Part shown: in pieces, positions 5,971-9,422 of the stretch | How the letters are laid out: the number at the start of each line of letters is the position of its first letter | How positions within the stretch are numbered: the first letter of the stretch is position 1 | NCBI GenBank assembly: GCA_019689555.1 | Contig: JADGHE010000004.1 | Coordinates: 1 to 64,000, forward strand | Direction of reading: 5' to 3' | Origin: Variibacter sp. | Lineage (GTDB): Bacteria > Pseudomonadota > Alphaproteobacteria > Rhizobiales > Xanthobacteraceae | DNA: 64,000 nucleotides | Notes under the pieces: generated by a model | The model's input: the letters and a program-made list of their open reading frames with translations, nothing else | What the model was told of the DNA's origin: nothing | The model's database searches: none | Position numbers and translations under genes: made by a program

Positions 5971-6825
5971 ATGCCGGCCGTCTTCGACCATTGCGAACGC
6001 CTGGTGCGCGAGGGCGACATGGATCGCTTTCTCGCGGCGCTCTTCGCGTCGCCCGAGCGCCGGCCTCTGCTCCATGCGGTCTATGCGTTCGACATCGAAA
6101 TCGCGGCCATCGGCCTGCGCGTCCATGAACCGCTGGCCGGCGAAGTGCGCCTGCAGTGGTGGCGCGACGTCATCGCCGGGGAGCGTCCGGGCGAGGCCGC
6201 GGCGTCGCCGGTCGCGGCCGCTCTGCTCGCCGCGATCGACGCGGCGGGGCTCGATCGCGCGCCCTTTCTCGCCGCGCTGGACGCGCGGAGCTTCGACGTC
6301 CATCGCGAGGCGATGCCGACCCTGGAAGAGCTGCGGCGCTACGCGGCGGACGCGGCGGGAAGCGTGATGCGGGCGGCCGCGGCCGTCCTCGGGGCGGACG
6401 ATGGTGGGCGGAGCGAAGACCTCCTCGCTGATGCGAGCCTGGCGGTGACCGCGGCCGGCGCCCTGCGTCAGTTCGCGCGGCAGGCCTCGCGCGGGCGCCT
6501 GCTCGTCCCGACGGAGGTTCTTGATCGCCACGGCGTCGACCCCGGCGAGGTGCTCGCGGGGCGAACGAGCCCCGCCTTGCACGCGGCCCTCGCCGAGTTC
6601 GGCGCGCTCGCGCGCCGCCACGCGCGGCGAACCATGGCCCAGCTCGCCGAGAAGGCGCCGGCGGCCGCCTGGCCGGCCTTTCTCCATGTGGGGCTCGTGC
6701 CGCTCTATCTCGATCGCATGGAACGCGGGGGCTACGACCCGTTCGCGACCGCGCTCGACGTGCCGCAGTGGCGCCGCCAGTGGCGCCTGTGGCGGCTCGC
6801 GCGTTCGCTGAGGGAGCCGGGCTGA
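5971..6825 (+). CDS. Squalene/phytoene synthase-fold protein, NDUFAF6-like
   Basis: A 284-residue member of the squalene/phytoene synthase superfamily. It carries AVYAFDIEIA and VRLQWWRDVI, typical of the NDUFAF6 (C8orf38) branch, and ASRGRLLVP in place of the second active-site block. The aspartate-rich DDxxD-type motifs of true prenyl-condensing enzymes are missing, so terpenoid synthesis is unlikely and a complex I assembly role is the better inference. Start set at the ATG at 5971; the same frame is open further upstream but reads through the preceding gene. Confidence 0.75.
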   Translation: MPAVFDHCERLVREGDMDRFLAALFASPERRPLLHAVYAFDIEIAAIGLRVHEPLAGEVRLQWWRDVIAGERPGEAAASPVAAALLAAIDAAGLDRAPFLAALDARSFDVHREAMPTLEELRRYAADAAGSVMRAAAAVLGADDGGRSEDLLADASLAVTAAGALRQFARQASRGRLLVPTEVLDRHGVDPGEVLAGRTSPALHAALAEFGALARRHARRTMAQLAEKAPAAAWPAFLHVGLVPLYLDRMERGGYDPFATALDVPQWRRQWRLWRLARSLREPG

Positions 6826-6867: not shown

Positions 6868-8004
6868 TCAGGGCGCCTGGAGATTGAACCGGTCGAGCAG
6901 ATTCTTGCGGCCCGCCACGATGCGCGCGACGACGAGGCGCTCGGCCTCCGTCATCGGCATCTCCGCCACGAGGTCCATCTGATTCATGGCCACGAGAGCG
7001 AGGATTTCGGTTCGCACTGCGTTGTCGGCACGGCGCGGCAGGGCCTCGACGACCTGCAGCCGCTCCGGCGGCCGCACGCCCCCGCATTCCGCGGCAAGGA
7101 AGCTCTGAAGCTCGGATTCGGCGACGCTGGCCTCGACGAAGGCATAAAGGCCGGTCCCCATGCGGCGATCCGGGAAGGGGAGGATGACGGCGTCGCGAAC
7201 CCGCGGATGCTCCTTCAGGCGCTTCACGATCACCGGGGCGTCGTTGACGAGGCGCGGCCCGGCGCCCTCGCGATCCGTGAAGTTGAACAAGCCGCGCGTG
7301 ATCCAGACATAAAGCCGCTTGCCGGTGAGGAGCCACACCCGCGCGATCCAGCTCTTGCGCCTGAGCACGCGCCGCTCGCTGGCGGTCAGCGCCTCGGGCG
7401 CATAGCGGCGCTTGTGCTTGAGGAGGTGCCGCAGGTCCTCATAGGCCGCGAGGCGAAACAGCGCGCTGCGGCGGGAGAAGCGGACGGCGAGCTGGAAGTC
7501 GGTCAGATAGGCGCGTCCGTCGCTGCCGCGCAGCCAGTTCTGCTCCTTGGCGAGATCGTTGTGGCTGATCCCGGCGCGGTGGAGGCTGCGCAGCGCCGCC
7601 TTGGCCGAGCGGAAATAGGCCCGGTCGCCGGTCGGCTTGGCGATGTGCATGGCGATGCCGTCGATCCAGCTCCGCACCAGCACGGACGGCCCCCGCCACA
7701 GCACGTGCGGCGCGATGCCGAGCGGCCCGGCCACGGCGAGCGCCCGCGCCTCGCGGCGGAGGAAATGCTTGGCGAGGGGGCGGCTCCACCACGGGACCTC
7801 ATCGAGCCGCCGGAGCACGGCCTCGACCTCCCCGTCGGGTCCGCGGAAGGTGCCGCGCTCGACGGTCGAAAACACGTCGCGCTTGAGCACCGTCGAAGGC
7901 CGCCACCTGTCGCCGAGTTCCGGCACCTCGGCGGGAACGGCGGTGCGCTTCGTCGAAGCGACCGCAGACGGAGCGGATCGGCTCGGGACGGCAGGCTCGA
8001 ACAT
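6868..8004 (-). CDS. Kinase-fold protein with a C-terminal ANL (AMP-binding) subdomain
   Basis: Product of 378 residues starting MFEPAV, two bases after the trmFO stop. Residues about 35-200 look like a small-molecule or lipopolysaccharide kinase fold: the catalytic loop HNDLAKEQN (148-156) and TDFQ (168-171) stand for HxDxxxxN and DFG. Residues about 255-335 resemble the small C-terminal domain of acyl-CoA synthetases (HPRVRDAVILPFPDRRMGTG, then LPRRADNAVR). The catalytic lysine of that domain is replaced: the usual GK reads Asn328-Ala329. Function unknown; the combination suggests ATP-dependent phosphorylation of an unknown target. It shares a transcript with trmFO. The frame extends further upstream but inside trmFO. 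Confidence 0.65.
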   Translation of the reverse strand: MFEPAVPSRSAPSAVASTKRTAVPAEVPELGDRWRPSTVLKRDVFSTVERGTFRGPDGEVEAVLRRLDEVPWWSRPLAKHFLRREARALAVAGPLGIAPHVLWRGPSVLVRSWIDGIAMHIAKPTGDRAYFRSAKAALRSLHRAGISHNDLAKEQNWLRGSDGRAYLTDFQLAVRFSRRSALFRLAAYEDLRHLLKHKRRYAPEALTASERRVLRRKSWIARVWLLTGKRLYVWITRGLFNFTDREGAGPRLVNDAPVIVKRLKEHPRVRDAVILPFPDRRMGTGLYAFVEASVAESELQSFLAAECGGVRPPERLQVVEALPRRADNAVRTEILALVAMNQMDLVAEMPMTEAERLVVARIVAGRKNLLDRFNLQAP

Positions 8005-8006
8005 GG

Positions 8007-9422
8007 CTACTCCGCGGCGAGGGCCGGAGGCGCGCCGGCGATCCATCGCTCGAGATCGGCGAGCGCCCGCGCGCACAGCGCCCGCCTTTTCGCGATGGTC
8101 TTGGTCGCGCCCCGCAGCCGCGCGCCATCTGCGTCGCGGGCGGGGACCCGCTCGAGGGGCGGAAACAGACCGAAGTTGACGTTCATAGGCTGGAACGAGC
8201 GCGGCCCGGCCTCGGCCGCCTCGATGTGGCCGCCGGTGATGTGCGCGAGCAGCGCGCCGTGGGCGGTGGTCGCCGGCGGGGGCACCACGGGCTTTCCCAG
8301 CCGCTCCGCCGCCGCAAAGCGGCCCGCCATCAACCCGACGGCGGCCGACTCGACATAGCCTTCGCAGCCCGTGATCTGACCGGCGAACCGCAGGCGCGGC
8401 ATCGCCTTGAGCCGCAAGGTCGCGTCCAAAAGCTTTGGCGAGTTGAGGAAGGTGTTGCGGTGCACGCCGCCGAGGCGCGCAAACTCCGCCTTTTCGAGGC
8501 CGGGTATGGTACGGAAAATGCGGATCTGCTCCCCGTGCTTCAGCTTCGTCTGAAAGCCCACCATGTTGAAAAGCGTGCCGAGCTTGTTGTCCTGGCGCAG
8601 CTGGACCACGGCATAGGGCTTCTCGCCGGGGCGGTGCGGATTGGTCAGCCCGACGGGTTTCATCGGACCGTGACGCAGCGTGTCGCGGCCGCGCTCGGCC
8701 ATCACCTCGATGGGGAGGCAGCCGTCGAAATAGGGCGTCGAGGCCTCCCAGTCGTGGAAGGCGACCTTCTCGCCCGCCAGCAGGGCATCGACGAAGGCCT
8801 CATACTGCTCCCGGGTCATGGGGCAGTTGATGTAGTCGGCCCCACCGCCGCCGGGCCCGGCCTTGTCGTAGCGCGACTGGAACCAGGCGACCGACATGTC
8901 GATGGAGTCGCGGTAGACGATGGGCGCAATCGCGTCGAAGAACGCCAGATCGGCCTCGCCGGTGAGGGCGCCGAGCGCCTCCGAGAGGGCGGGGGAAGTC
9001 AGCGGCCCGGTCGCAATGATGACGGAATCCCAGTCCGCGGGCGGGAGGCCGGTGACCTCCTCGCGGCGCACCTCGATCAGGGGATGGGACGAGATTGCCG
9101 CGGTGACGGCTGCGGCGAAGCCCTCGCGGTCGACGGCGAGCGCACTGCCCGCCGGGACCTTGTTGGCGTCGGCGGCCCGCATGACGAGCGAGCCGAGCCG
9201 CCGCATTTCGGCGTGCAGGAGCCCGACGGCGTTGTTCTCGGCGTCGTCGGAGCGGAACGAGTTGGAACAGACCAGCTCGGCGAGCGCCTCGCCTTTGTGC
9301 GCCGGGGTGGATCGCAGTGGCCGCATTTCGTGCAGCACGACGGGGACGCCCCGGCTCGCGATCTGCCAGGCGGCCTCGCTGCCGGCGAGACCGCCCCCGA
9401 CGATGTGGATCGGTTCCCTCAT
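8007..9422 (-). CDS. trmFO: Methylenetetrahydrofolate-tRNA-(uracil-5-)-methyltransferase
   Basis: Flavoenzyme that makes ribothymidine at position 54 of tRNA using methylenetetrahydrofolate and FADH2. The product of 471 residues begins [19 protein letters not shown], a dinucleotide-binding glycine motif, and contains [15 protein letters not shown] and [15 protein letters not shown], both typical of the family. The start at 9422 was preferred over in-frame starts further upstream because family members begin immediately before the FAD motif. The kinase-like gene follows after two bases. Confidence 0.95.

Follow-up and report, generated by a model that had tools for sequence, protein, structure and literature searches.

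On the reverse strand of the window, a stretch of 64,000 nucleotides from Variibacter sp., positions 6868..8004 (ATG start, stop codon included) encode a 378-aa protein that joins a kinase domain to an acetyl-CoA synthetase (Acs)-type tail. This two-domain architecture is real and conserved, and the family to which it belongs is named but undescribed. With moderate confidence, we read the protein as an active, atypical kinase whose Acs tail may have been repurposed for docking or regulation, a reading based on sequence comparison and predicted structures. The open reading frame, its length, and the motifs quoted in the original prediction were found as claimed, with HNDLAKEQN at residues 148-156, TDFQ at 168-171, HPRVRDAVILPFPD at 266-279, and LPRRADNAVR at 322-331.

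The protein is a member of the already named full-length family NF006620/PRK09188 ("serine/threonine protein kinase" in NCBIfam), scoring 505.2 bits against a cut-off of 490, with residues 25-377 aligned to positions 11-364 of the 365-position profile. The original prediction had treated the architecture as one it did not know to be described, and had named a standard family covering the whole protein as evidence against its reading; NF006620/PRK09188 is such a family, since its match spans the full length of the protein. No description of the fusion or of its function was found in the literature. PRK09188 and PRK12274 occurred in none of the papers covered, a search for fusions of AMP-binding_C with kinases returned unrelated papers only, and a joint search for acetyl-CoA synthetase, protein kinase, and trmFO retrieved nothing relevant. 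In Pfam, the window protein gave two weak matches, AMP-binding_C at residues 263-324 and Pkinase at 128-206, both below the gathering score.

The tail occupies residues ~250-372 (6889..7257, reverse strand), a span that includes the Acs-like segment after the A10 motif. When folded alone with AlphaFold2, it adopted the ANL C-terminal fold (pLDDT 84.6), as the original prediction had proposed for this part of the protein. The structural search with the tail returned acetyl-CoA synthetases in all of the top 32 rows by Z (best Z 14.1 over 131 residues), and 4u5y, in which the C-terminal domain of Acs stands alone and is bound to a Pat GNAT domain, matched with Z 13.7. Acetyl-CoA synthetases also came first when the tail profile was compared with the PDB (E 7.1e-08, profile positions 19-124 aligned). 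The tail of one homologue, from genome G087, was 41% identical to the AcsA tail of this genome over 122 residues (E 9e-29); the tail of the window protein was 27% identical to AcsA of this genome (E 1e-10). The segment typical of Acs after A10 (e.g., NEHDALGDTSTLADPxVVxDL) was kept in an altered form. Because the profile matches in the PDB, the Acs-only top structures, the 41% identity between the G087 tail and AcsA, and the retained post-A10 segment all point to Acs itself, the origin of the tail is acetyl-CoA synthetase specifically, not acyl-CoA synthetases generally. The layout originally ascribed to acyl-CoA synthetases was thus right as to the ANL C-terminal domain and is corrected as to its source. 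The Pfam search proposed at the same time gave a divided result: AMP-binding_C (PF13193) matched 41 of the 41 aligned homologues at E <= 0.01 (best E 1.9e-12) and scored 23.7 bits for the window protein alone, just below the gathering score of 24.5, and the Kdo and RIO1 families were unmatched in the window protein.

The ANL N-terminal adenylation domain is missing, and the kinase domain occupies its place. With no N-terminal ANL domain to work with, the tail would be unable to adenylate. The A10-like motif LPRRADNAVR at residues 322-331 (7012..7041, reverse strand) has Ala at codon 329 (7018-7020) in place of the adenylation lysine. The loss of this lysine, stated in the original prediction, applies to the window protein and to most of the divergent members; in Bradyrhizobium and Nitrobacter, the lysine is mostly kept within PX4GK. 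Position 329 was Glu in nine, Ala in eight, Lys in three, Ser in two, Gly in two, and Val, Met, or Thr in one each of the 27 sequences of a non-redundant set, and the tail of G087, the most Acs-like one, also has Ala there. Of the sequences sampled, 43 of 47 from Bradyrhizobium, all four from Nitrobacter, and six of 20 unassigned ones had the complete PX4GK motif, as did the outlier G341 and the genera g243 and g248. A quickly built tree of 95 sequences requires about six changes of the lysine/PX4GK label. Judged from these sequences, the word "inactivated" fits the window protein, but across the family the lysine did not disappear in a single, final loss.

PX4GK is the acetylation motif used by Pat-type acetyltransferases, and within Acs the tail is a movable domain that contacts the N-terminal domain of the enzyme, CoA, and the pair of Pat and CobB. 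The fused tail might be an acetylation-responsive switch: acetylation of the tail lysine in Bradyrhizobium and Nitrobacter would tune the kinase, the acetyl-CoA status would control target phosphorylation by a kinase made with TrmFO, and the lineages with Ala or Glu, including that of the window, would be locked in one state. We consider this quite unlikely. Acetylation is not predictable from sequence alone (PMC4053389). As a function of the window protein itself, a Pat switch was ruled out, as position 329 is Ala.

Conservation was lower in the tail than in the active site of the kinase. The tail could be a neutral relic of a fusion, attached to an ordinary protein kinase, in keeping with the NCBI family name (serine/threonine protein kinase) and with the drift of the lysine position among Glu, Ala, Lys, Ser, and Gly. 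That would leave L286, Y287, A288, F289, E291, Q317, P323, R324, and R331, all invariant or nearly so, and the presence of the tail in all close homologues sampled to be accounted for, and we regard a relic as very improbable. In two genomes, one open reading frame of about 474 aa contains the Acs-derived tail twice in succession (G296, L142:8764-10176; G309, L143:8981-10384), and both copies are without the A10 lysine.

The kinase-like domain spans residues ~30-246 (7267..7917, reverse strand) and is homologous to the kinase-only family PRK12274. AlphaFold2 modeled the full protein with a mean pLDDT of 86.6 (41 homologues in the input), and the structural search of the model found the two-lobe fold of the protein-kinase-like superfamily, so that the kinase fold originally predicted for the first half was borne out. 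The best structural match of this half was RIO2 (1tqi; Z 18.6, rmsd 3.2, 182 residues aligned), and further matches were obtained with RIO1 and with the kinase domain of a class III lanthipeptide synthetase (CurKC, 7wj6; Z 17.7). ArkI (7vnx, Z 15.8) and PRPK (Z 15.4) followed amid many ordinary protein kinases. RIO1 and RIO2 thus rank first structurally, yet they lie within 1-2 Z of other kinases, and the window protein has no Pfam RIO1 match. By sequence, Pkinase (PF00069) reached 20.3 bits against a gathering score of 31.7, and the kinase profile retrieved only ordinary Ser/Thr kinases from the PDB, with modest E values and no closer named relative. No match of the window protein to the Kdo/WaaP kinase family (PF06293) was obtained at E <= 1, or to choline kinase families in Pfam and NCBIfam.

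Across 101 sequences, K41, D43, R65, E85, H148, N149, D150, K153, N156, D169, F170, and Q171 were invariant, and the same held for the 27-sequence non-redundant set. The equivalent of the glycine loop, LKRDVFSTVERG (residues 40-51; 7852..7887, reverse strand), contains the invariant K41 and D43 and coincides with the modeled beta strands 34-42 and 47-55. Glu85, the helix-C glutamate (7750..7752), lies in helix 75-95; the catalytic loop HNDLAKEQN (7537..7563) supplies Asp150 and Asn156; and the metal-binding DFQ comprises residues 169-171 (7492..7500), all on the reverse strand. By strand order in the model, the position of the beta-3 (VAIK) lysine on the third strand (58-66) would be taken by the invariant Arg65 (7810..7812, reverse strand). 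In addition, the spacing from Asp150 to Asn156 is six instead of the canonical five, a feature invariant in both the PRK09188 fusion family and PRK12274, and the catalytic chemistry may therefore differ from the canonical one.

The replaced beta-3 lysine and the unusual spacing in the catalytic loop would be in keeping with a catalytically dead pseudokinase, acting as a scaffold with the tail as a second protein-binding domain. Such a protein would not be expected to keep the catalytic Asp150, the Asn156, and the metal-binding Asp169, which are invariant in every homologue, the kinase-only branch included, and a dead enzyme is unlikely. Loss of the lysine at its usual position is also known from other kinases: in choline kinase, it is replaced by Arg, a change that is compatible with activity and is compensated in the glycine loop and DFG, and in Wnk kinases, the ATP-binding lysine is relocated to the glycine loop (PMC1821047). 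From its sequence and its model, the kinase half is most likely an active but atypical kinase, probably nearest in fold to the RIO kinases.

Besides the genome of the window, 36 genomes of its family were covered, and 19 of them carry the fusion; of 24 genomes that represent the remaining families of the order, one does. An evenly drawn set of 289 genomes from the class gave full-length matches only in the genome of the window and in G087, which is from another order and carries the sole full-length fusion found outside the order of the window. A scan of named genomes gave 249 loci, and the best 80 of the 249 came from Bradyrhizobium, Nitrobacter, Afipia, Tardiphaga, Rhodoplanes, and Pseudorhodoplanes, among others. 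In a second proteobacterial order, 43 of the 150 genomes sampled gave a match to the kinase-only PRK12274 (NF008910) at E <= 1e-15; PRK12274 ends where the Acs tail begins in the fusion. One genome (G534, L165:8466-9332) encodes a 289-aa protein with a weak PRK12274 match (E 1.6e-18) and a Pfam RIO1 match, and this protein possibly links the PRK12274 kinases with the RIO kinases.

Directly upstream of the kinase gene and on the same strand lies trmFO (8007..9422, reverse strand; PRK05335, 683 bits), the stop codon of which precedes the kinase ATG by two bases. A squalene/phytoene-synthase-like gene (5971..6825, forward strand), resembling HpnD (TIGR03465; 122 bits against a cut-off of 279), is convergent and ends beside the kinase gene. 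Of the 79 loci that could be tested, 78 have trmFO immediately before the kinase gene in the same orientation, with a median gap of four bases (some gap values are negative, as start codons were picked by rule), and the squalene/phytoene-synthase-like gene was convergent in 68 of 77. A conserved secD-secF-PSY arrangement was observed convergent to trmFO and the kinase. In the outlier G341, trmFO is near the kinase in a different gene order. The link with trmFO noted in the original prediction is therefore well kept where the fusion occurs; its conservation across Hyphomicrobiales, also raised there, did not hold, as both the link and the fusion itself characterize a single family (that of the window, with Bradyrhizobium, Nitrobacter, Rhodoplanes, and their kin), apart from one outlier elsewhere in the order and one fusion outside it.

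The conserved and almost overlapping pair of genes could mean that the protein is a tRNA kinase or a tRNA-modification partner coupled to TrmFO. The kinase half is very basic (pI 11.4) and resembles in structure RIO1/2, PRPK/Bud32, and ArkI, a tRNA kinase of archaea (7vnx, Z 15.8), but RIO and ordinary protein-kinase structures score at least as high as ArkI. The hallmarks of ArkI are an HGQ catalytic triplet and a DFE metal triplet (PMC9095486), which are HND and DFQ in the window protein; on this ground, membership in ArkI, considered for the sake of trmFO and the structural match, was ruled out. Moreover, no trmFO lies near the fusion of G087, and no trmFO-like neighbour was recognised alongside the kinase-only relatives. 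A role in tRNA modification is consequently improbable. Since the kinase domain is also found away from trmFO, the link probably represents co-expression or lineage-specific use, and it may reflect merely a convenient promoter.

The neighbours of the more distant relatives bear on a further explanation, in which the protein is a lipid, glycolipid, or small-molecule kinase acting on a lipid A/LPS-type or choline-like acceptor, with the Acs tail contacting an acyl-CoA or carrier substrate. The fusion of G087 (L141:8784-14079) adjoins lpxB-like, lpxD, acyl-carrier-protein, and fabF genes, with a PAP2 phosphatase near, and this neighbourhood is possibly a lipid-A-like cluster. In five loci (L163:8415-11207, L178, L179, L180, and L182), the PRK12274 gene is divergent to a gene for a VTT-PAP2-LssY membrane protein. 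One member of the family also matches Pfam Kdo, and the Arg at the beta-3 position is shared with choline kinase (PMC1821047). The HND of the window protein likewise resembles choline kinase. These points are offset by others. The kinase-only relatives have mixed neighbours, which include short-chain-dehydrogenase-like, DUF456, reductase-like, and VTT-PAP2-LssY genes (the dehydrogenase and reductase names come from reading the sequences, not from a search), and the VTT-PAP2 link occurs in five kinase-only loci while others adjoin DUF456 or a reductase. Neither the window gene nor its near relatives have lipid A genes beside them, their neighbours being trmFO and the squalene/phytoene-synthase-like gene, and 40 of the 41 members are without a Kdo match. 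As the context of G087 is not common to the kinase-only relatives, a lipid A kinase is kept as a rival only, and a lipid or small-molecule substrate is possible, though on the unlikely side.

The favored explanation, in which an atypical kinase is active and has put an Acs tail to a new use, would run as follows. A PRK12274-type kinase would have acquired the Acs C-terminal domain by gene fusion. Arg65, the glycine-loop Lys41, or both would stand in for the usual beta-3 lysine, so that the kinase would be active and move phosphate from ATP onto a target. The tail would serve for docking or regulation, either by binding a partner of the Acs type or a regulator of Acs or by sensing a ligand, and the activity of the kinase would be adjusted in response; co-translation with TrmFO would fix the dose of the kinase. 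Binding modules are often duplicated in tandem, and the tandem tail in two genomes, together with the conserved tail residues, fits a docking or sensing domain. A regulatory or binding module is thus the most plausible role of the tail, as the original prediction had suggested.

If the tail does control the kinase, the moving domain of a metabolic enzyme would have been detached and reused to regulate phosphorylation. The donor enzyme, the kinase-only relative, the most Acs-like intermediate in G087, and the tandem-duplicated forms would then all be available for comparison, and a function would be given to a family that occurs in many Bradyrhizobium and Nitrobacter genomes and is so far called just "serine/threonine protein kinase".

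Compared with known systems, the NF006620/PRK09188 entry covers the same full-length span and carries the kinase name only; it describes no tail derived from Acs and no substrate. NF008910/PRK12274 has the same kinase domain as the fusion protein, with the HNDLAKExNWL and DFQ motifs and the C-terminal helix, but it is a kinase-only family without the Acs tail, and its gene neighbours differ. The C-terminal domain of AcsA (4u5y chain D, 8w0h, and 1pg3) shares fold and sequence with the tail, the post-A10 segment included; unlike AcsA, the window protein lacks the N-terminal ANL domain, has its catalytic lysine replaced, and is attached to a kinase. The choline kinase branch of the CAK family (PMC1821047) has in common with the window protein the Arg for the beta-3 Lys and changes in the glycine loop and DFG, which is DFQ in the window protein and DFE in choline kinase. 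RIO1/RIO2, Bud32/PRPK, and ArkI are among the nearest kinase folds, from which the window protein is set apart by the predicted Arg at the beta-3 Lys, by DFQ, and by HND with an Asp-to-Asn spacing of six. The fusion is thus an unusual pairing of two known kinds of domain rather than a new system.
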